NCBI GenBank assembly: GCA_944324465.1
Contig: CALUWI010000003.1
Span: 1-64,000 of the forward strand
Direction: 5' to 3'
Length of the DNA: 64,000 nt
DNA from: an uncultured Mucispirillum sp.
Lineage (GTDB): Bacteria; Chrysiogenota; Deferribacteres; Deferribacterales; Mucispirillaceae
A model generated the notes under the pieces. The model worked only from the letters and a program-made list of their open reading frames with translations, did not search any database and had not been told where the DNA came from. Both the position numbers and the translations under genes were made by a program. Each line of letters opens with the position of its first letter. The first letter of the stretch is position 1. Below, in pieces: positions 24,772 to 33,495 of the stretch.

Positions 24772-26121
24772 ATGAAAAAGTATATAATCTTTATGCTGTT
24801 TTTTTTAATATGTCATAAGTCTTATGGTTATGAGCAGATATATTATCCAGAAGAAGAATATTCTCCACGGTATATGATTAAAGATTACAGTTATATAAAA
24901 AATTATAACCAGCTTTGGCAGCAGGTTTCTGCTCAAATGGATATATTATCTTATGATGAATTTATATATAAAGATTATGGCACTTATACATCACGCAAAT
25001 CAAGAGATGAAGTAATAAACTATATTAAAAACTACAAAATACAGACAGGTGAGCTTTTAAGTGAAGATATGGTATACCCTGCCTTAAACTGTCTTATAAT
25101 CCAGAATAAAGCACTTTTAAAAGCAAGGCAGGTTTTAGATAATGTGCCGGGACATGATAAAACAAGCCTTGTATATCTTGCAGCAGGTCTTTCATATATA
25201 TACAGTGACGGGCTTTATGAACTTGATAAATTAAGAAAAATTTTTAAAGAATGGCTTCGTCTTGGTGGCGAAGATTTTCCAGAAATAAAAGGGGAGGAAC
25301 GGCAGAAAAGATACAACCTTTTTTCATATATTGCAAATATGCCTGATAACCCGTTAATTACTGATGAATTTATTAAAATATTAAAAAACGGCTATTATGA
25401 TAAGCTTGTTTTTAAAAACGGTCTTTTTGATATATTTAATGCAGATTTTTATACAATTATAAGCAGCAGAGAGCTTTATGCAGGCAATAATATTACAAAA
25501 TATTTTGTAGATTACATTAATGCAGAGTATATGGATATTATAACTAATAAACATTTCAGGCTTGATATGAATGGCACAAAAGTAAACCATTACTGGACAG
25601 TGTGGGATTATGAAAAGGGCAGGAAAACAAGGAAAGATAATTTTTATATACTTCCTTTTGATAAACAGACTTTTACATTAAGTGTGCAGAAATATGAAGA
25701 TAAATATATTTTGCAGATAAATTACTATAATCCAGAATATATTGATACGCCATATTATGCTGAAATTTCTGTCAGCATAAAAGATATGAAGTTTACTGGA
25801 AAAACAGTATGGCCCTATACTCTTGTAAGAAATAAAGTTATTAACAGCCTTGTATCTTCCCCATCTTTTCAATGCCGTGATGATATTACACCGCAGCATC
25901 AGATAATATGCGAAAGTTTTTCACTTAGAATGTATGATAAAATCAGCAGCAGGAAATATTTTTTAGTTTACAGCAGTATAAGGAAGAAATCTAAAAAAAT
26001 TAAACAGCTTGAAAGTATAAAGCAAAACTTTAAAGAAAGATTAGATGCATGTTATATAGATAGAAAATGTTTGCAGAATGAATATAAATCGTATATAGAA
26101 AGCCTTATAAAATTTAAATAA
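24772..26121 (+). CDS. Exported protein of unknown function
   Basis: The 449-residue protein begins with a clear signal peptide (MKKYIIFMLFFLICHKSYGYEQ) with no lipobox, so it should be periplasmic or outer-membrane associated. It is Tyr- and Lys-rich, with helical N-terminal and mixed C-terminal regions, and its last 60 residues contain two Cys (ACYIDRKCLQNEY) in the manner of lysozyme-inhibitor-like C-termini. No domain is recognised. It follows the YjbQ gene by 6 bp and closes this five-gene run. It is convergent with the B12 operon, with only 4 bp between stops. Confidence 0.7.
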   Translation: MKKYIIFMLFFLICHKSYGYEQIYYPEEEYSPRYMIKDYSYIKNYNQLWQQVSAQMDILSYDEFIYKDYGTYTSRKSRDEVINYIKNYKIQTGELLSEDMVYPALNCLIIQNKALLKARQVLDNVPGHDKTSLVYLAAGLSYIYSDGLYELDKLRKIFKEWLRLGGEDFPEIKGEERQKRYNLFSYIANMPDNPLITDEFIKILKNGYYDKLVFKNGLFDIFNADFYTIISSRELYAGNNITKYFVDYINAEYMDIITNKHFRLDMNGTKVNHYWTVWDYEKGRKTRKDNFYILPFDKQTFTLSVQKYEDKYILQINYYNPEYIDTPYYAEISVSIKDMKFTGKTVWPYTLVRNKVINSLVSSPSFQCRDDITPQHQIICESFSLRMYDKISSRKYFLVYSSIRKKSKKIKQLESIKQNFKERLDACYIDRKCLQNEYKSYIESLIKFK

Positions 26122-26125
26122 TTTT

Positions 26126-27103
26126 TTATAATTTATTAGTTTTCATTATTAAAAATATAAAAAACGGCGCTCCTATAAGTGAAGTAACAACAGAAACAGG
26201 TAGTTCTGCTGGAGCGATAATCACTCTTGATACTGTATCGCAGAAAACAAGGAAAGCTCCGCCAAAAATAAATGATACAGGTATTAATATTTTATTTTTA
26301 AATGAAACATACATTCTAATAATATGTGGAATTATCATACCAACAAACCCTATTGGTCCTGTGGCAGAAACTACTGCAGCAATTGATAAAGATACTGTAA
26401 AATAAAGTATAGTTATAGATGAAGTAATATTTACGCCTCTACTTTTTGCAATATACTCACCCATAGAAATAATATCAAGCTCTTTATGGTATGAATAAAT
26501 TATAATAAAGGCAGCAAGGCTTAAAGGAGTAAGGAATAAAATATTATTAAGCGATACAGCAGCCAGCGAGCCTGTAATATATCTTGTTATAATGTAAGAT
26601 TTTTGAATATCAGCAAAATACTGTATAAACATAATTAATGAAGAAGTGAAAAAATTAACTGCCACCCCTGCTAAAAGAAGCGTAACATTATTTAGCCTGC
26701 CTTTTATAAAAGCAAAGCTGTAAACTATAAGTATTGTGATTACTGCGCCTATTAATGCAGCAATAGTCTGCCCAAAAACTGCCATAAGGCTTATAGACTG
26801 AGCAAATAATATATATATGGCAGCACCAAGTGAAGCACCACCTGCAACACCTAATGTGAAAGGGGTTGCAATAGGGTTTTTAAATATAGATTGAAAAACA
26901 AGACCGCTTACAGCTAATATACCCCCTGTTATAAAGCCAGTTATTACTCTTTGAAGGCGGGTATTAAAAAATATATAGTTATCAATAGATTCACTGTTAA
27001 ATATATTATATATATTTATACTGTGTGAGCCAATAAATAAAGATATGACAGTAATTAATATGCTTAAAAAAGTGATTATAAATATTTTTATATTTGTATT
27101 CAT
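26126..27103 (-). CDS. btuC: B12/iron-siderophore type ABC transporter permease
   Basis: A FecCD/BtuC-family inner-membrane permease of 325 residues with about ten helices. Family landmarks are FKNPIATPFTLGVAGGASLGA, LLLAGVAVNFF and GPIGFVGMIIPHIIRMYV. Its start overlaps the end of the ATPase gene by 4 bp (ATGA). It is the last gene of the operon headed by a cobalamin riboswitch, which favours vitamin B12 over siderophores. Confidence 0.9.
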   Translation of the reverse strand: MNTNIKIFIITFLSILITVISLFIGSHSINIYNIFNSESIDNYIFFNTRLQRVITGFITGGILAVSGLVFQSIFKNPIATPFTLGVAGGASLGAAIYILFAQSISLMAVFGQTIAALIGAVITILIVYSFAFIKGRLNNVTLLLAGVAVNFFTSSLIMFIQYFADIQKSYIITRYITGSLAAVSLNNILFLTPLSLAAFIIIYSYHKELDIISMGEYIAKSRGVNITSSITILYFTVSLSIAAVVSATGPIGFVGMIIPHIIRMYVSFKNKILIPVSFIFGGAFLVFCDTVSRVIIAPAELPVSVVTSLIGAPFFIFLIMKTNKL

Positions 27104-27864
27104 TTTGGCACAATAACCGTCCTTTGATTTTCTTTTAAATATATAAATTCCATATCAAATAAAGAAGAAAATATATTTTTTTCAACCATTTCATTACTTT
27201 CTGCACAGGAAAAGAGTTTACCATTTTTTATGCATATAAACGATGAATTTACTGCTAATGCATAGTTTAAGTCGTGGGTAATAAGTATTATGCTGTATTT
27301 ATTTTTCTGATTTAATTTTACAAGCAGATTATTTATTTCATATTTTGCTTTTGGGTCTAAAAATGAAGATATTTCATCAAGCAGTATAAATTCTGCTTCC
27401 TGAGCAAGAGCAGCAGCAATATTTACTTTCTGTCTTTCCCCGCCGCTTAATGTGGATATATGCCTTTCTTTTAAGTTATATATATTTGTAAGGCTCATAT
27501 AGTAGTGTATTTTATCTAAATGTTCTTTTGTAATTGTTCCAAAATAATCAAGATATGGGTATCTGCCTGCTGCAACAAAATCTTCCACAGTAAAATCAGC
27601 AACAGAATAGTTTACCTGCTGTGGCACATAACTTATTAACTTTGCTTTTTCTTTTTTATTAATCTTTAAAATATTTTTATCATATATTGTAACATTTCCA
27701 TTATCAGGCTTTATAATTCCAGTGATAATATTTGCAAGGGTTGATTTTCCTGCTCCGTTTGGACCAATAATGGAAACCATCTGCCCCTGTTTAATATTCA
27801 GGCTTATATTACTTATTATATCATTATTTTTTATTCTGTATGAAATATTATTAACTTTAATCAT
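27100..27864 (-). CDS. btuD: ABC transporter ATPase for B12 uptake
   Basis: The 254-residue FecE/BtuD-type ATPase has Walker A GPNGAGKST near 33-41, Q-loop YVPQQ, signature LSGGERQK, Walker B FILLDEISSFLDP and switch His in LITHDLNYA. It powers import through the permease encoded next to it. It overlaps the binding-protein gene by 8 bp and the permease gene by 4 bp, a tight operon. Confidence 0.93.
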   Translation of the reverse strand: MIKVNNISYRIKNNDIISNISLNIKQGQMVSIIGPNGAGKSTLANIITGIIKPDNGNVTIYDKNILKINKKEKAKLISYVPQQVNYSVADFTVEDFVAAGRYPYLDYFGTITKEHLDKIHYYMSLTNIYNLKERHISTLSGGERQKVNIAAALAQEAEFILLDEISSFLDPKAKYEINNLLVKLNQKNKYSIILITHDLNYALAVNSSFICIKNGKLFSCAESNEMVEKNIFSSLFDMEFIYLKENQRTVIVPK

Positions 27865-28744
27865 TTAACTTACTTATATATTCATGTGCAAATTTTTCTA
27901 TTATTAAATCAATTCTAGGACCTGGCAGACTGAGATAATTTTCATAAAGAATAATTACATCATTATTTTTAACAGCTTTTAATGGCATATCTGCCCAGTC
28001 TTTTTGTGCATCTTTATAATTATTACCGTGATACATATCAAATATAAAAGCAGGATTGATTTTTAAAATACTTTCCTTAGAAATTTCTGTATATGGTGGA
28101 AAGTTTTTTAATTGGTTATCTATATTTAATATTTCTAAAATATCATTATAAAGGTTATTTCCACCTGCTGCTGTAAAAGTTGATATTTCAGAGCCGTAAT
28201 TTCTAAAAATAGAAATAACCGCAGAATTTTCTTTTTTATTTTTAGGAAGTGATTTTTTAATATTTTCTATTTTTTCCTGTATCTGATTTTTTCTTTTATC
28301 TGTAATATTTTTTATATTAAATTCATTTCCTAAAATATCGTAAGCATTTAATATATCATTAATAGTATTATTATTAATTTCAATAACTTTTATGCCCATA
28401 CTTTCAAGCTTTTCTTTTTGAGCCTGCATATTCTGCTGAATAATTGCTGTATTAATTTTTAATTTTGCAATCTGCTCATAATTTACATCATTAAAAGAGC
28501 CTATTTTTTCTTTATGTTTTGCATCTTCTGGATAATTGCAGTAGGTAGTATCTGCAATTAAATACTTATCAAGCCCTGTATCGTAAATATATTCTGTAAT
28601 ACTTGGGGAAAGGCTTGCAAGTCGTATAATGCTTTTATCTATGTTATTATTTTTTTGCAGTAAAAAATAAGCAAATAAAATAAATATAATAATAAATAAA
28701 AGTATGGTTATAAAAAATAAGTAGTTTTCTTTAAATTTATTCAT
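27857..28744 (-). CDS. btuF: Periplasmic cobalamin-binding protein
   Basis: The 295-residue protein has an N-terminal hydrophobic segment (LFFITILLFIIIFILFAYFLL) that may be an uncleaved anchor rather than a signal peptide, then a class III solute-binding fold. The opening IRLASLSPSITEYIYDTG and especially DTTYCNYPEDAKHKEKIGSF are typical of BtuF-like proteins. C-terminal PGPRIDLIIEKFAHEY is also a family motif. It delivers B12 to the BtuCD-type transporter. Confidence 0.9.
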   Translation of the reverse strand: MNKFKENYLFFITILLFIIIFILFAYFLLQKNNNIDKSIIRLASLSPSITEYIYDTGLDKYLIADTTYCNYPEDAKHKEKIGSFNDVNYEQIAKLKINTAIIQQNMQAQKEKLESMGIKVIEINNNTINDILNAYDILGNEFNIKNITDKRKNQIQEKIENIKKSLPKNKKENSAVISIFRNYGSEISTFTAAGGNNLYNDILEILNIDNQLKNFPPYTEISKESILKINPAFIFDMYHGNNYKDAQKDWADMPLKAVKNNDVIILYENYLSLPGPRIDLIIEKFAHEYISKLND

Positions 28745-28748
28745 ATAT

Positions 28749-29354
28749 TTAACTTCCCTGCAGAGTAAAAGTAATTTTTAAGTCAAAGTTTGAGCTTACA
28801 GGCTCTCCGTTTTTTAAAGCAGGCTGAAATTTAGCAGTTTTAATTGATTTTTCAGCTTCCTTATCAAGCCTTTTATATCCGCTTGACTGAACCATTTTAT
28901 AAGCTGTCATATTTCCTTTATTATCAACTTCAATATTAAAAATAATGCTGCCTTCCTCTTTATTTCTCCTGGATATTAAAGGGTATTTTGGTTCAGGCAC
29001 ATAGCTTGCATATCCATTAATAAAAGATGATGTTTTTTCATATCCTTCATTTCCTTTTTTAGCAGTTTTAAGCTCTGATTTTTTTTCTTGTTTTTTAATA
29101 TTTTTGCTTTTTCCATTAAGGCTTTTATCTATTTCTTTTTTAATATTATTATCTGCCTTTTTTTGTGAAACATTATTTACACCGCTTATATCTTCTGCCT
29201 GTTTTACCCCTTGAGATAAATGCATTATTTCTACACTTACATAAGATTTTGCAGATGATATACTTTTACTGTTATTATTTTTATTATTATAATTAAATAA
29301 CAGGGCAGCATGAATAAAAAGTGATAAAATAAGACTGAATATTAATGTTTTCAT
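28749..29354 (-). CDS. tonB: TonB energy-transducing protein
   Basis: The 201-residue protein has an N-terminal membrane helix (LIFSLILSLFIHAALLFNY, with the conserved Ser and His), a Lys-rich linker with a short Pro stretch (YVPEPKYPLISRR) and a C-terminal TonB domain: GSIIFNIEVDNKGNMTAYKMVQSSGYKRLDKEAEKSI. It passes proton-motive energy to the outer-membrane receptor encoded just upstream. exbB and exbD are not in the operon, so those partners must be encoded elsewhere. Gaps to neighbours are 1 and 4 bp. Confidence 0.9.
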   Translation of the reverse strand: MKTLIFSLILSLFIHAALLFNYNNKNNNSKSISSAKSYVSVEIMHLSQGVKQAEDISGVNNVSQKKADNNIKKEIDKSLNGKSKNIKKQEKKSELKTAKKGNEGYEKTSSFINGYASYVPEPKYPLISRRNKEEGSIIFNIEVDNKGNMTAYKMVQSSGYKRLDKEAEKSIKTAKFQPALKNGEPVSSNFDLKITFTLQGS

Positions 29355-29355
29355 A

Positions 29356-31239
29356 TTATATTTTTGCCTTTAACCCTAGAAATATTTCTATACCTTTTGT
29401 GCCATAGCCGTATATTTCTTCATATTCTGTATTAGTTAAGTTTGTACCTTTTAAATATACTTCTATATTATCATTAATTTTATATGATATATTTGCATTT
29501 AATAAAAAGTAGTCATCATTTAGTCCTGCTGTTTCATATATTGTAGCAACACTTTCACCGTTATATATTAACCCTATATTAATTTTTAATTTTTCTATTG
29601 GTATAATATTTATATAAGCTGATACCTGATGTTCAGGACGTCTTGCAAGTGGGTTGCCGTTTACATTAAAAGTCTGCATCCATGTATATGTAGAGCCAAA
29701 ATTAATATATTTTATTGGATTTACATTGATTTCTGCCTCTATTCCTCTTGTATGGGTGCTTGTTTCATTATAAAATCCTGTTTTTATGGAATTATTTTCA
29801 TCAATATAAGAGCCGTATGCAATCATATTATTATAGTAATTATCAAACCATGAAAGCCCGTATACTATTATTTTATTAAAGAGTTCATTTGTAAAACCAA
29901 CTTCATAAGCAAAACTTTCCTGCAATTTTAAATTACTGTTACCAAAAACTGGGTCATAAAGCTGGTAAAGTGAGGGAGACATAGCACCGTTACCTGCTGC
30001 CGCTTTTATCTGTAAATCAATAGATTTAATATTATACACAGAGGATATTCTATAAAGTGGTATAAATTTTATATCATCTACCTTTAAACCTCTAAAGGCA
30101 ATAACTGTATTCCAGCTGTCAAAAAGGTTGATTGTGCCTTGAAGATATCCTGCATAACTATTTTTAGATTTATTATTTTCCAGCACACCTGTTCGTGAAT
30201 ATATCTGATTATATTCATAATTAACACCTGCTGTTAAAGTAAATTCATCAATGATGTAAATATTATTTTGAAAATCTGCACTTAATGTATGTCCATCAAA
30301 TATATCATTATTGTTATCTTTTATTTGAGAAGATGAGCCGTATATTCTGTCCTGATAAGTGTAGTTTATATTAAGTGAAGGCTCCCATATATCATTATAA
30401 AGATAGCTTGTTTTAAATGCAGTAGAAACTCGTTTTGTCTGCTGCATATAATCAGGGTTATCATTATTTGCACCGCCACCGTTATCTAAATCGCTTGTTC
30501 TGTCTGTATAATCTATATAAAATGATGTTTTTGATTCATCAACTGGGGCAGCACCAATATATGCGGAAAAATGCCCCATAGCATCTGGGTCGTTTTCAGT
30601 GTTGCCATATTTATAAGCAGCAGAAGATACATTTTCATCATATAAATAAGCTGCATTAATTCTATAATCTATTCTATTTTTAGAACCGTATAGTGAGGCA
30701 TTTCCAGTAAAATACTGGCTTAAAATAGAGCTTTGAAGCTGGGCAGCTGCCTGCACAGGTTTATCTCCTCCTTTTTTAGTAATAATATTTATAGCACCAT
30801 TCATAGCAGCAGCTCCAAGAGATGCACTAAGCGGACCTTTGACTACCTCTATTTTTTCTATATTATCAACAGGTATTGATGATAAATCTATATCATTATT
30901 TATTCCAGCAGCATCAGTTAACGGTATGCCATCAACCATAATCATAGTAGAGCCGCTGTTGCCACCGCGGATACTTAAAGAGGTCAGCTTTCCTGCTGCA
31001 TTCTGCCTTATAACAAGCCCCGGAACATAGCGAAGTATTTCATCAAAAGTTGATGGGTTAACTGCCTGAATCTGCTCTTGTGTAATTGTTGTTATTCCTA
31101 TGCCGGCTTTTGAAACAGCTGTAGGCACAGTAAGACCTGTTACAAATATTTCCTGCGAAAAACTGCTTTGCTGAGCATATAAAGAATTAGAAAAAAAGAA
31201 AATAGAAAATAATAAAAAAATAGATTTATATTGCTTCAT
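29356..31239 (-). CDS. btuB: BtuB-like TonB-dependent outer-membrane receptor
   Basis: The start at 31239 follows GGAGG; 627 residues. A signal peptide ends near SLYAQ. The plug domain includes GITTITQEQIQAV, IRGGNSGSTMIMVDGIPL and IEKIEVVKGPLSASLGAAAMNGAINIITKKG, and a 22-strand barrel follows, ending in a short aromatic-poor terminus GLKAKI. The cobalamin riboswitch in its leader and the downstream btuF identify vitamin B12 or another corrinoid as cargo. It heads the five-gene operon. Confidence 0.94.
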   Translation of the reverse strand: MKQYKSIFLLFSIFFFSNSLYAQQSSFSQEIFVTGLTVPTAVSKAGIGITTITQEQIQAVNPSTFDEILRYVPGLVIRQNAAGKLTSLSIRGGNSGSTMIMVDGIPLTDAAGINNDIDLSSIPVDNIEKIEVVKGPLSASLGAAAMNGAINIITKKGGDKPVQAAAQLQSSILSQYFTGNASLYGSKNRIDYRINAAYLYDENVSSAAYKYGNTENDPDAMGHFSAYIGAAPVDESKTSFYIDYTDRTSDLDNGGGANNDNPDYMQQTKRVSTAFKTSYLYNDIWEPSLNINYTYQDRIYGSSSQIKDNNNDIFDGHTLSADFQNNIYIIDEFTLTAGVNYEYNQIYSRTGVLENNKSKNSYAGYLQGTINLFDSWNTVIAFRGLKVDDIKFIPLYRISSVYNIKSIDLQIKAAAGNGAMSPSLYQLYDPVFGNSNLKLQESFAYEVGFTNELFNKIIVYGLSWFDNYYNNMIAYGSYIDENNSIKTGFYNETSTHTRGIEAEINVNPIKYINFGSTYTWMQTFNVNGNPLARRPEHQVSAYINIIPIEKLKINIGLIYNGESVATIYETAGLNDDYFLLNANISYKINDNIEVYLKGTNLTNTEYEEIYGYGTKGIEIFLGLKAKI

Positions 31240-31278
31240 ACCTTCCTCCATAACTCAAGTGGATACTTGGCTTAATAT

Positions 31279-31414
31279 GTTTGCAGGTCTCCTGACTTAC
31301 TTTCAACTTAAAACACGCCTTCCCAGATATTACTACCCAGTGGCATAATGTGTTTTAATCCAGATTACAGTCGCTTGAGCGGTTAGAGCATTTCACTCTA
31401 TTCCCTTTTCAAAC
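31279..31414 (-). promoter_or_regulatory. Cobalamin riboswitch controlling the btuB operon
   Basis: On the minus strand the RNA shows the closing stem GTTTG/CAAAC, GGGAA...GTGAAAT, AACCGC, AGCGACTGTAA, GCCACTGG, TGGGAAGGCG and AGTCAGGAGACCTGC in the order of the B12-element consensus. It ends 40 nt before the btuB start codon, so it can mask the ribosome site when B12 is bound. Confidence 0.95.
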
Positions 31415-31423
31415 ATGGAAAGA

Positions 31424-31452
31424 AATATAAAATATAATCAAATATAAATCAA
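31424..31452 (-). promoter_or_regulatory. Promoter of the btuB operon
   Basis: TTGATT at 31447-31452 and TATATT at 31424-31429 on the minus strand with a 17-bp spacer. Transcription would begin about 10 bases upstream of or at the first base of the riboswitch. Confidence 0.6.
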
Positions 31453-31467
31453 GTAAAAATATTTTGC

Positions 31468-31495
31468 TTGACAAAAATTAAAAAAATTATACCAT
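31468..31495 (+). promoter_or_regulatory. Promoter of the second cobalamin riboswitch transcript
   Basis: Perfect TTGACA at 31468-31473 and TACCAT at 31490-31495 with a 16-bp spacer. The start site would fall at the first base of the plus-strand riboswitch near 31502. Confidence 0.55.
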
Positions 31496-31501
31496 TTAAA
31501 G

Positions 31502-31650
31502 CAGGTATACAAACGGAAGTGTGGTGTGATTCCACCGCTGCCCCCCGCAACTGTAATATCTGACGAGTTCATATTTATCCACCTGAGAGTTAAGCTTAAT
31601 GGGAAGGAATGAATTAGGTTGAAGATTAAGCCAGGAGACGCTGTATTCTG
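31502..31650 (+). promoter_or_regulatory. Second cobalamin riboswitch, controlling the RCC1 lipoprotein
   Basis: In order: AACGGAAGTGTGGTGTGATTC, CCGCAACTGTAA, CCACCTGAGAG, ATGGGAAGGAATGAATTAGG and AAGCCAGGAGACGC, matching the B12-element consensus. An outer stem forms from CAG..ATAC and GTAT..CTG. It points away from the btuB operon toward the lipoprotein gene. Confidence 0.93.
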
Positions 31651-31677
31651 AAAAAAATATTCTTCGGGAGGAAGGCT

Positions 31678-31737
31678 ATGAAATCTTTTACTTATCATTT
31701 TTCAAATGTAAGATTTTGCTTCAATTTCTTTATTTAA
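31678..31737 (+). CDS. Possible 19-residue leader peptide after the riboswitch
   Basis: ATG 31678 follows an excellent ribosome site, GGGAGGAAGGCT, placed 27 nt after the riboswitch core. The frame encodes a 19-residue peptide, aromatic and Phe-rich (MKSFTYHFSNVRFCFNFFI), and stops at 31737, 39 bp before the lipoprotein gene. The riboswitch could control this site first. It is either a coupling leader or the vestige of a lost gene. Confidence 0.4.
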   Translation: MKSFTYHFSNVRFCFNFFI

Positions 31738-31776
31738 TCACTTTTAATTTTTACAATTTATTTTAAGGAGTTTTTT

Positions 31777-33459
31777 ATGAAATCAAGTCGTAATATTATA
31801 CTGCCTTTATGTGCAGCATTAGTATTATTATCTTCTTGTGCAGAAGAAACAAATACAAATAGTAAACAACCTATACCACCTGTTGTAAGTGAAGGTTTAG
31901 CTGATAATGCTATACTTCATGACAGTCCAAAAATAGGCATAGTATCTTTTAAACCAGCCAGCCATATAAGTGGCACTTCTTATAGCTGGTCTATTGATGG
32001 TATTAATCTTGAAAATGCTAATAATAGAGAAGTTACTGCTGATTTTACAAAAGCAGGTACTTATCTTGTTACTTTAAATGTGGATGGTATAGAATATAAA
32101 GGAAATATTATTATACCAGAAACATCATCTTATGAAATAGATATGGGCGAAAATCATACTATTATTTCAGATATATCTCAAAAAAGATTATTTGTTTATG
32201 GCAGTAATAATAAAGGTCAGCTTTGCATAGAAAAATCAATCATATCATTAAAAGAGCCTAGGATTTTAAAATCATATACACATGAAATACCATCTGTTGC
32301 AGCAGGTAGAAATCATACTCTTTTTACTGATAACAGCAATATATATGCCTGTGGAGATAACAGTTATGGCCAGCTTGGAACAGGTTCTAATGAAGAAATT
32401 GAAAATGTGGCAGCAGTTACTACAATAAAGGCACCAGAAGGCTTATCATACCGCAGAATATTTGTTTCAGCAGGCGGGGATATGTCTGTTGCTGGAACAG
32501 AATTTTTAGACGGCAGTGCACCAAAAATTTCAATTTATCACTGGGGATATAATGATAATATGACAGATAAAATACAAAGTTCTGCAAATTTATTAATAAC
32601 ATCAAATTCTCGTGATGATATATTATTTGCAACAGGAAATAATTTTTCTATTGTAAGAGCAACAAGCAGTTATAATGTATTTTCTTTTGGTGTAAATGAC
32701 AAATGGCAGTTAGGAAGAATACAGGGGGCAGGAGCAGGTTATGATGCTGCTGCTGTAAATCCAGATACTCATCTAGATGGCAGTAAAACAGATATGGCAT
32801 CAGGTTTTGTATTCACTCCATATGGGGAAGAGAAATTAGCTGGTGATTATTCAGACCGCTCATATTACCAAAATAATTATTTTGCAAAACTTGCAGCAGG
32901 TGATGATTTTGTTGTATCCATTAAAAAGGAAACATCAGCAGATTCTGCATGGACTAAGCAGGATAAATATGCTGTATATGTATGGGGCAGTAATGCAAAT
33001 AATGTATTAGGTTTTCAAAACTTAGATGGAAATGCAGCAGTTCGCAGGGGGACAGCTTTATTTAATGCTGTTGAGCAGGAAGCAATGGCAGCAGACCCAA
33101 ACCAAGTTGTGCCTATTTTTAAAGAAATTATTGAAGTTGCAGCAGGCAGAGCAGCAGGTTATGCTATATCAAATGACGGAATTCTTTACGGCTGGGGTGA
33201 TGAAAGTAAAAATCAGCTGACAAATAATAAAACAGCAAATGCTGTAAATAATAATGTTTATGAAATAGCAAACCCAAATGGAGTAACAGCAGGCTATAAA
33301 AAAGTATGGGCAGGTGGTGATAGAGTTATTGCATTAGCGGGGGATAATAACTTATACACTTGGGGAGATAACCATAACGGTATATTAGGCACTGGAAACT
33401 CGCTGGAAGTTGTGGCTTCACCTGAAAAAATTTATTTTAGTTTAGCACCAGTCCAGTAA
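31777..33459 (+). CDS. Seven-bladed RCC1-type beta-propeller lipoprotein under B12 control
   Basis: The 560-residue protein has a lipobox LLSSC with Cys21, a short Ser/Pro/Thr linker, a PKD/Ig-like domain at about 50-113 (SYSWSIDGINLENANN...AGTYLVTLNVDG), and then seven RCC1-style blades. The blade cores are YGSNNKGQL, CGDNSYGQLG, WGYNDNMTDK, FGVNDKWQLG, WGSNANNVLG, WGDESKNQLT and WGDNHNGILG, several preceded by VAAG or LAAG. RCC1 propellers are binding platforms. Its cobalamin riboswitch and position back to back with btuB imply a role in capturing corrinoids at the cell surface, as the seven-bladed lipoprotein BtuG does in Bacteroides. That role is an inference. ATG 31777 has AAGGAG upstream. 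Confidence 0.9.
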   Translation: MKSSRNIILPLCAALVLLSSCAEETNTNSKQPIPPVVSEGLADNAILHDSPKIGIVSFKPASHISGTSYSWSIDGINLENANNREVTADFTKAGTYLVTLNVDGIEYKGNIIIPETSSYEIDMGENHTIISDISQKRLFVYGSNNKGQLCIEKSIISLKEPRILKSYTHEIPSVAAGRNHTLFTDNSNIYACGDNSYGQLGTGSNEEIENVAAVTTIKAPEGLSYRRIFVSAGGDMSVAGTEFLDGSAPKISIYHWGYNDNMTDKIQSSANLLITSNSRDDILFATGNNFSIVRATSSYNVFSFGVNDKWQLGRIQGAGAGYDAAAVNPDTHLDGSKTDMASGFVFTPYGEEKLAGDYSDRSYYQNNYFAKLAAGDDFVVSIKKETSADSAWTKQDKYAVYVWGSNANNVLGFQNLDGNAAVRRGTALFNAVEQEAMAADPNQVVPIFKEIIEVAAGRAAGYAISNDGILYGWGDESKNQLTNNKTANAVNNNVYEIANPNGVTAGYKKVWAGGDRVIALAGDNNLYTWGDNHNGILGTGNSLEVVASPEKIYFSLAPVQ

Positions 33460-33465
33460 AAAAAC

Positions 33466-33495
33466 TATCCTGCTGTATTTACTTACAGCAGGATA
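33466..33495. terminator. Terminator between the RCC1 lipoprotein and asparaginase genes
   Basis: Perfect 12-bp stem TATCCTGCTGTA / TACAGCAGGATA with a 6-base loop between two convergent genes. Confidence 0.8.

Follow-up and report, generated by a model that had tools for sequence, protein, structure and literature searches.

A riboswitch-controlled RCC1-propeller lipoprotein beside btuB in Mucispirillum: a candidate BtuG-like component of vitamin B12 uptake

Introduction

Can a propeller of the RCC1 type do in Mucispirillum what BtuG does in Bacteroides, where this lid-like propeller lipoprotein catches B12 and passes it to BtuB (PMC6143338, PMC10404256)? The question is raised by a locus in the window analysed here (the whole stretch of 64,000 nucleotides), which belongs to contig C3 of a 2.4-Mb draft genome (G000) of Mucispirillum (Deferribacterota), and in which a lipoprotein gene with RCC1 repeats adjoins a btuB operon. 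Among named organisms, those nearest to this genome are Mucispirillum metagenome bins, Candidatus M. faecigallinarum being one of them. The gene btuG has been found only in Bacteroidetes (PMC6143338), to which lipoprotein-capped TonB-dependent transport is seemingly exclusive (PMC10404256); further riboswitch-controlled lipoproteins of Bacteroides bind B12 via other folds (PMC12751083, PMC13398666).

Results

Organisation of the locus

Two matches to the cobalamin riboswitch family RF00174 (gathering cut-off 31.5 bits) lie back to back in the window. The plus-strand aptamer (31470-31659, 67 bits, E 2e-14) belongs to the lipoprotein gene, and bears out the riboswitch proposed in an initial annotation of the window, whose start at 31502 falls within it. 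The minus-strand aptamer (31265-31448, 91.3 bits) leads to an operon identified with Pfam, PDB and NCBIfam as btuB-tonB-btuF-btuD-btuC, so that the divergent stance described in the same annotation also held. The first gene of this operon, btuB (minus strand, 29356-31251), encodes a TonB-dependent receptor closest to the B12 receptors, its best PDB match being E. coli BtuB (E 8e-30) and its best NCBIfam family TonB-B12 (E 3e-56, although at 191 bits against a cut-off of 600); since the mechanically assigned start at 31251 overlaps the Shine-Dalgarno sequence, the ATG at 31239, just after GGAGGAAGGT, is the more likely start. It is followed on the same strand by genes for a tonB-like protein (28749-29354; Pfam TonB_C, E 8e-21), a btuF-like periplasmic binding protein (27857-28744; Pfam Peripla_BP_2, best NCBIfam family BtuF at E 6e-24, below cut-off), a btuD-like ATPase (27100-27864; Pfam ABC_tran) and a btuC-like permease (26126-27103; Pfam FecCD, E 2e-85, best NCBIfam family BtuC, below cut-off). 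A bidirectional terminator-like hairpin, recognised by consensus match only, lies 3' of the lipoprotein gene at 33466-33495.

Cobalamin riboswitches were also observed on other contigs of the same draft genome. One stands before genes for the small and large subunits of a ribonucleotide reductase (L099, G000:C20, 2471-6200), which suggests that low B12 turns on a reductase that does not depend on B12. Another precedes a long cluster resembling cobalt uptake and cobalamin synthesis, its genes named by eye (L101, G000:C7, 8857-17324), and the organism may accordingly both make and scavenge B12.

The RCC1-propeller lipoprotein

The plus-strand open reading frame at 31777-33459 encodes a protein of 560 residues and about 60 kDa. 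Its N-terminus, MKSSRNIILPLCAALVLLSSC21, ends in the lipobox LLSSC21, in agreement with the previously proposed lipid attachment at Cys21, and a signal peptide with a lipobox-like Cys is present in all family members. The acidic pI of 4.9 was considered as a BtuG-like sign and rejected, because the genome's other RCC1 lipoprotein is equally acidic and the value therefore says nothing. Both the Pfam RCC1-like domain PF25390 (E 8e-46, 157 bits, cut-off 150) and the RCC1 repeats PF00415 (E 1.5e-24, 86.7 bits, cut-off 21.7) are matched above their cut-offs and the fold is that of RCC1, placing the protein among the RCC1 repeat propellers. The seven blade cores counted initially were all recovered as GxNxxGQLG-like motifs, at residues 142, 193, 257, 305, 404, 474 and 530, the third of them degenerate.

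An AlphaFold2 model computed with 13 sequences (pTM 0.83, mean pLDDT 78) places a seven-bladed propeller at approximately residues 118-556, with a variable, low-confidence insert at 314-366, behind an Ig/PKD-like domain at approximately 46-113. For this N-terminal domain the earlier assignment stood only in part: the PKD match falls below the Pfam cut-off (18.2 vs 23.5 bits), whilst the model does show an Ig-like beta domain at 46-113. The nearest solved folds are those of seven-bladed UVR8 (E 1e-21), RPGR and RCC1, with target TM values up to 0.78. A second AlphaFold2 model, of a homologue from the sister genus, reached a mean pLDDT of only 61 and was taken merely to hint that a pair of Ig-like domains precedes the propeller there. 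No known corrinoid-binding motif was found in the lipoprotein.

Distribution and genomic context of the family

Relatives were sought in 51 genomes of the phylum and, with the profile of alignment A1, over 385 genomes with at most three candidates scored per genome; full-length relatives occur in only two genera of one family, and a contig scan for relatives beyond that family returned only Mucispirillum and one weak match in Erysipelotrichaceae. The 13 copies comprise eight Mucispirillum orthologues (the seven others being 71-79% identical to the window lipoprotein in alignment A1), a diverged second copy in genome G043 (about 41%), and four copies from the sister genus (G035-G038; 32-34%, one of them cut by a contig end). 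A search of other Deferribacterota for RCC1 lipoproteins at B12 riboswitches or btuB, suggested in the initial annotation, came out in favour of its proposal, with RF00174 directly upstream in 13/13 copies and three arrangements among them: divergent from btuB (eight copies), in one riboswitch-RCC1-btuB-tonB operon (one copy), and apart from btuB under a riboswitch of its own (four copies). Since these copies descend from a common ancestor and do not represent 13 separate events, the evidence is better counted as three arrangements. Nine of the 13 copies were counted as lying beside btuB. This number includes the G040 copy, whose contig, in a broken assembly, stops immediately beyond the btuB riboswitch, so that the btuB gene is found on a separate contig.

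The operon arrangement is that of the second G043 copy (G043:C40, L087), in which 54 nt separate the RCC1 gene from btuB and a second riboswitch is absent; RCC1 and btuB have thus been duplicated together. The sister genus has the RCC1 gene with its own riboswitch (L095-L098) and the btuB operon (L104, L112-L114) on separate contigs. Homologues regularly found away from B12 genes had been named beforehand as an outcome that would speak against the proposal, and when this was checked, the sister-genus copies proved to stand apart from btuB but to have retained the riboswitch. Just upstream of the riboswitch-RCC1 unit in the sister genus we also observed a large protein (L096, 3045-6812; L098, 6956-10741; L095, 13798-15849). 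Of its copies, L096 and L095 were searched and both contain Kelch repeats, whilst L096 and L098 begin like lipoproteins.

No cobalamin riboswitch lies in the 2 kb upstream of any of 24 other RCC1-domain loci of the phylum, these loci having been compared by eye and counted as contigs, with some at contig ends and one search more strictly filtered. When the N-terminal domain was made into a profile, using the Mucispirillum orthologues only, it matched solely riboswitch-linked proteins among all the open reading frames collected, including the second G043 copy at E 3e-15 and the sister-genus proteins at E 4e-9 to 1e-6. One further candidate, from a distant genome of the phylum (G001), was left out of the count because an opposite-strand gene separates it from the nearby btu operon. 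This giant secreted protein (L115/L116, G001:C22:392001-415889) has at least 5,366 residues, with numerous RCC1 repeats as well as Flg_new repeats and Laminin_G domains, and starts 2.2 kb past the riboswitch-led btu operon, the gene in between encoding a DUF1538 protein.

Two genomes bear on how far the lipoprotein and the btuB operon travel together. The one-contig Mucispirillum genome G041 is without the RCC1 gene and without btuB-tonB-btuF-btuD-btuC; there (L110) the asparaginase gene directly adjoins the homologue of the window gene at 24772, so that the whole unit is gone between conserved flanks, and the other two riboswitches are kept. In a third genus (G039), a riboswitch-led btuB operon occurs with no RCC1 partner, indicating the lipoprotein to be dispensable and accessory to the btuB operon.

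A leader open reading frame between riboswitch and lipoprotein gene

The initial annotation had the riboswitch leading directly to the lipoprotein gene, which proved incorrect: a leader open reading frame of 19 codons (MKSFTYHFSNVRFCFNFFI*, plus strand, 31678-31737, Shine-Dalgarno spacing 6) sits between the two. The Shine-Dalgarno sequence borne by the riboswitch (GGAGG, 31667-31671), held in the expression-platform hairpin UCUUC-GGGAG-GAAGG (P13/L13, plus strand, 31661-31675), serves this leader, and the lipoprotein gene has a Shine-Dalgarno sequence of its own. GGAGG and a leader of 7-19 codons lie directly 3' of the riboswitch at all 13 loci, the leader having 18-19 codons in the Mucispirillum orthologues, 13 in the second G043 copy and seven in the sister genus (loci L087-L098). 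The lipoprotein start follows the leader stop by 39-57 nt in the eight orthologues, whereas in the remaining five copies the gap widens to 268-305 nt, which is too long for simple re-initiation.

In all eight orthologues a CGGG of the hairpin around the Shine-Dalgarno sequence can pair with CCCG of the aptamer loop L5; on the btuB side, likewise in 8/8, L5 CUCAAG can pair with CUUGAG 3' of the aptamer, the Shine-Dalgarno sequence concerned there being btuB's own. Short expression-platform segments folded alone gave the predicted hairpin, yet no better than shuffled sequences did. Because the Shine-Dalgarno hairpin can pair with L5, B12 should shut off translation of the leader first, and expression of the lipoprotein should then follow, via coupling or via termination of the untranslated RNA. 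Translation of the leader is a prediction from sequence, and its coupling to the lipoprotein gene a presumed further step, for which the ppe2 B12 riboswitch of M. tuberculosis offers a parallel: there too a short open reading frame comes between a B12 riboswitch and the main gene, and its translation is needed for the downstream gene (PMC11260477), whereas translation of the Mucispirillum leader is predicted.

Mosaic evolution of the propeller gene and btuB

When aligned by codon, the RCC1 genes are patchworks. Those of G000 and G047 share 59-82% identity over the first 320 codons, followed by 100% and 97% in the next two 40-codon blocks, and those of G045 and G040 pass from 65-85% to 88-100% at the same point. 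Of 25 allele-diagnostic residues that split G045, G040 and G044 from the rest, 24 fall within residues 322-433, in and around the loop inserts after two neighbouring blade cores. The two alleles of this segment, A and B (codons 322-433, plus strand, 32740-33075, delimited by diagnostic residues and sliding identity), cut across species relationships; the segment is, as far as the aligned sequences indicate, a case of interspecies recombination inside the propeller gene.

In our own implementation of a pairwise-homoplasy test, the RCC1 gene scored 0.299 where shuffles gave 0.483 (sd 0.004), and BtuB, which is thus also mosaic, scored 0.229 where shuffles gave 0.374. BtuF, BtuD and BtuC gave no signal, values as low being reached by 454, 177 and 481 of 1000 shuffles, respectively. 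The RCC1 and BtuB results were unchanged when limited to the same six species as these three; a weaker signal was seen in the flanking genes for asparaginase and malic enzyme. Mosaic RCC1 and BtuB genes together with non-mosaic BtuF, BtuD and BtuC fit two cell-surface proteins under diversifying pressure, from which we infer that the two outer-membrane proteins share a pressure that the inner parts of the system do not. Co-typing of the A/B segment with BtuB residues was tried as proof of contact and rejected: no BtuB site follows the split, and the A/B face is therefore probably not in contact with BtuB.

Comparison with known B12-binding lipoproteins and RCC1 proteins

Like BtuG, the Mucispirillum protein is a seven-bladed propeller lipoprotein of a gut organism, controlled by a cobalamin riboswitch (13/13), encoded beside btuB (9/13) and duplicated with it. 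It differs in having a propeller of the RCC1 type with an N-terminal Ig/PKD-like domain, in the divergence of its gene from btuB in most genomes, and in its host, which belongs to Deferribacterota rather than Bacteroidetes. Sequence homology to BtuG1-3 was not found, the A1 profile recovering RCC1-type chains and a few unrelated weak matches, with no BtuG chain, from the PDB at E values up to 0.1; nor does BtuG have a place among the 50 best fold matches of the predicted structure. With BtuG absent from both, the blade count is common to the two proteins but the family is not.

The lipoproteins DUF4465, BtuH and BtuJ resemble the Mucispirillum protein in being riboswitch-controlled lipoproteins of B12 uptake loci (PMC8941943, PMC12751083, PMC13398666); BtuJ and DUF4465, however, have a beta-jelly-roll fold, and DUF4465 (PF14717) had no match in 15 genomes of the family or among the Pfam matches of the lipoprotein. 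RCC1, RPGR, UVR8 and bacterial BLIP-II share the RCC1 repeat propeller but act in nuclear transport, cilia, light sensing and beta-lactamase inhibition. In a literature search with most subscription journals outside its scope, no paper joined RCC1 with BtuG, or with btuB in B12 uptake, and none tied propellers of the RCC1/RPGR/UVR8/BLIP-II type to B12 or an outer-membrane transporter; two Leptospira papers in which RCC1 and cobalamin riboswitches are both mentioned were set aside as concerning unrelated genes.

Discussion

Taken across the genomes compared, the riboswitch in 13/13 copies and three arrangements, the co-duplication with btuB (L087) and the joint absence in G041 argue that the lipoprotein in all likelihood serves B12 uptake, and it is very probably an outer-membrane part of the system. 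Riboswitch control, linkage and co-inheritance with btuB, the lipobox and the propeller fold appear well established by this comparison. Of the earlier proposal of a BtuG-like part built on a different propeller, the role in B12 uptake is supported in this way and the difference between the propeller families by sequence, whilst corrinoid binding, a surface location and contact with BtuB would be ascribed to the protein by analogy with BtuG. The chance that the lipoprotein itself binds a corrinoid at the cell surface before delivering it to BtuB is, on this analogy, about even. The best explanation overall, to which we give a probability of about 0.52, would be a BtuB-accessory lipoprotein whose expression is coupled to the leader and which captures corrinoids in the manner of BtuG. 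The absence of DUF4465 from the 15 family genomes also speaks in its favour; against it count the G039 btuB operon without an RCC1 partner, the separation from btuB in the sister genus, the A/B segment that no BtuB residue follows, and the failure to find a known corrinoid-binding motif in a propeller type whose known partners are mostly proteins.

The main rival is a lipoprotein of the B12 system that partners BtuB but binds no corrinoid itself, e.g. as a gate, a scaffold, a vesicle-related factor or a periplasm-facing docking protein. The genomic evidence is the same for both readings, BtuL of B. theta is a precedent, being riboswitch-controlled although B12 binding by it was not seen (PMC12751083), and those RCC1 propellers that have been solved serve as platforms for binding proteins (RCC1-Ran, UVR8-COP1, BLIP-II/beta-lactamase). 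One large conserved propeller lipoprotein per BtuB is, however, the organisation of BtuG and not of BtuL, and we regard a partner of this kind as rather unlikely. The capacity of RCC1 propellers to bind proteins would also suit a piracy receptor, i.e. a lipoprotein that grips a host B12 carrier (intrinsic factor, haptocorrin) or the corrinoid-binding protein of another cell and strips it of B12. Mucispirillum is known from the gut, and the dimorphic, exchanged loops at 322-433 are as expected of a contact surface facing host or competitor; against this, no host-protein motif was found, and such a receptor seems improbable.

In enterobacteria, phages and colicins use BtuB as a receptor, and mosaic alleles in RCC1 and BtuB alike could reflect a lipoprotein that is co-regulated with BtuB because it guards this receptor against the phages or bacteriocins that exploit it, an explanation made very improbable by the sister-genus gene being unlinked from btuB and by the failure of the A/B alleles to track BtuB residues. 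Scarcely credible, finally, is an unrelated adhesin-like surface lipoprotein that landed by chance beside a duplicated riboswitch: RCC1 lipoproteins of other kinds do occur in the same genome (e.g. G000:C20), but the riboswitch has been kept in every copy across two genera and all three arrangements by proteins only about 33% identical, the gene is co-duplicated and co-absent with btuB, and the other RCC1 proteins never have the riboswitch or the N-terminal domain.

Under BtuG-like capture, low B12 would lead the riboswitch to free the Shine-Dalgarno sequence of the short leader, and translation of the leader would permit expression of the downstream lipoprotein gene, so that the product would be made only when B12 is scarce, together with BtuB. 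The RCC1 propeller would be exported and lipid-anchored in the outer membrane, where it and BtuB would catch corrinoids outside the cell for passage through TonB-driven BtuB to BtuFCD. More tentatively, and with the odds against it, this may be an independently evolved RCC1-capped BtuB outside Bacteroidota in which exchangeable loop alleles of two blades tune the corrinoid or B12 carrier captured.

If the BtuG-like reading is true, an RCC1 propeller doing the job of BtuG in Deferribacterota would be a convergent solution and, as far as the literature found extends, the first B12-related function of a bacterial RCC1 lipoprotein; it would also suggest that competition for B12 in the gut drove the same design more than once.
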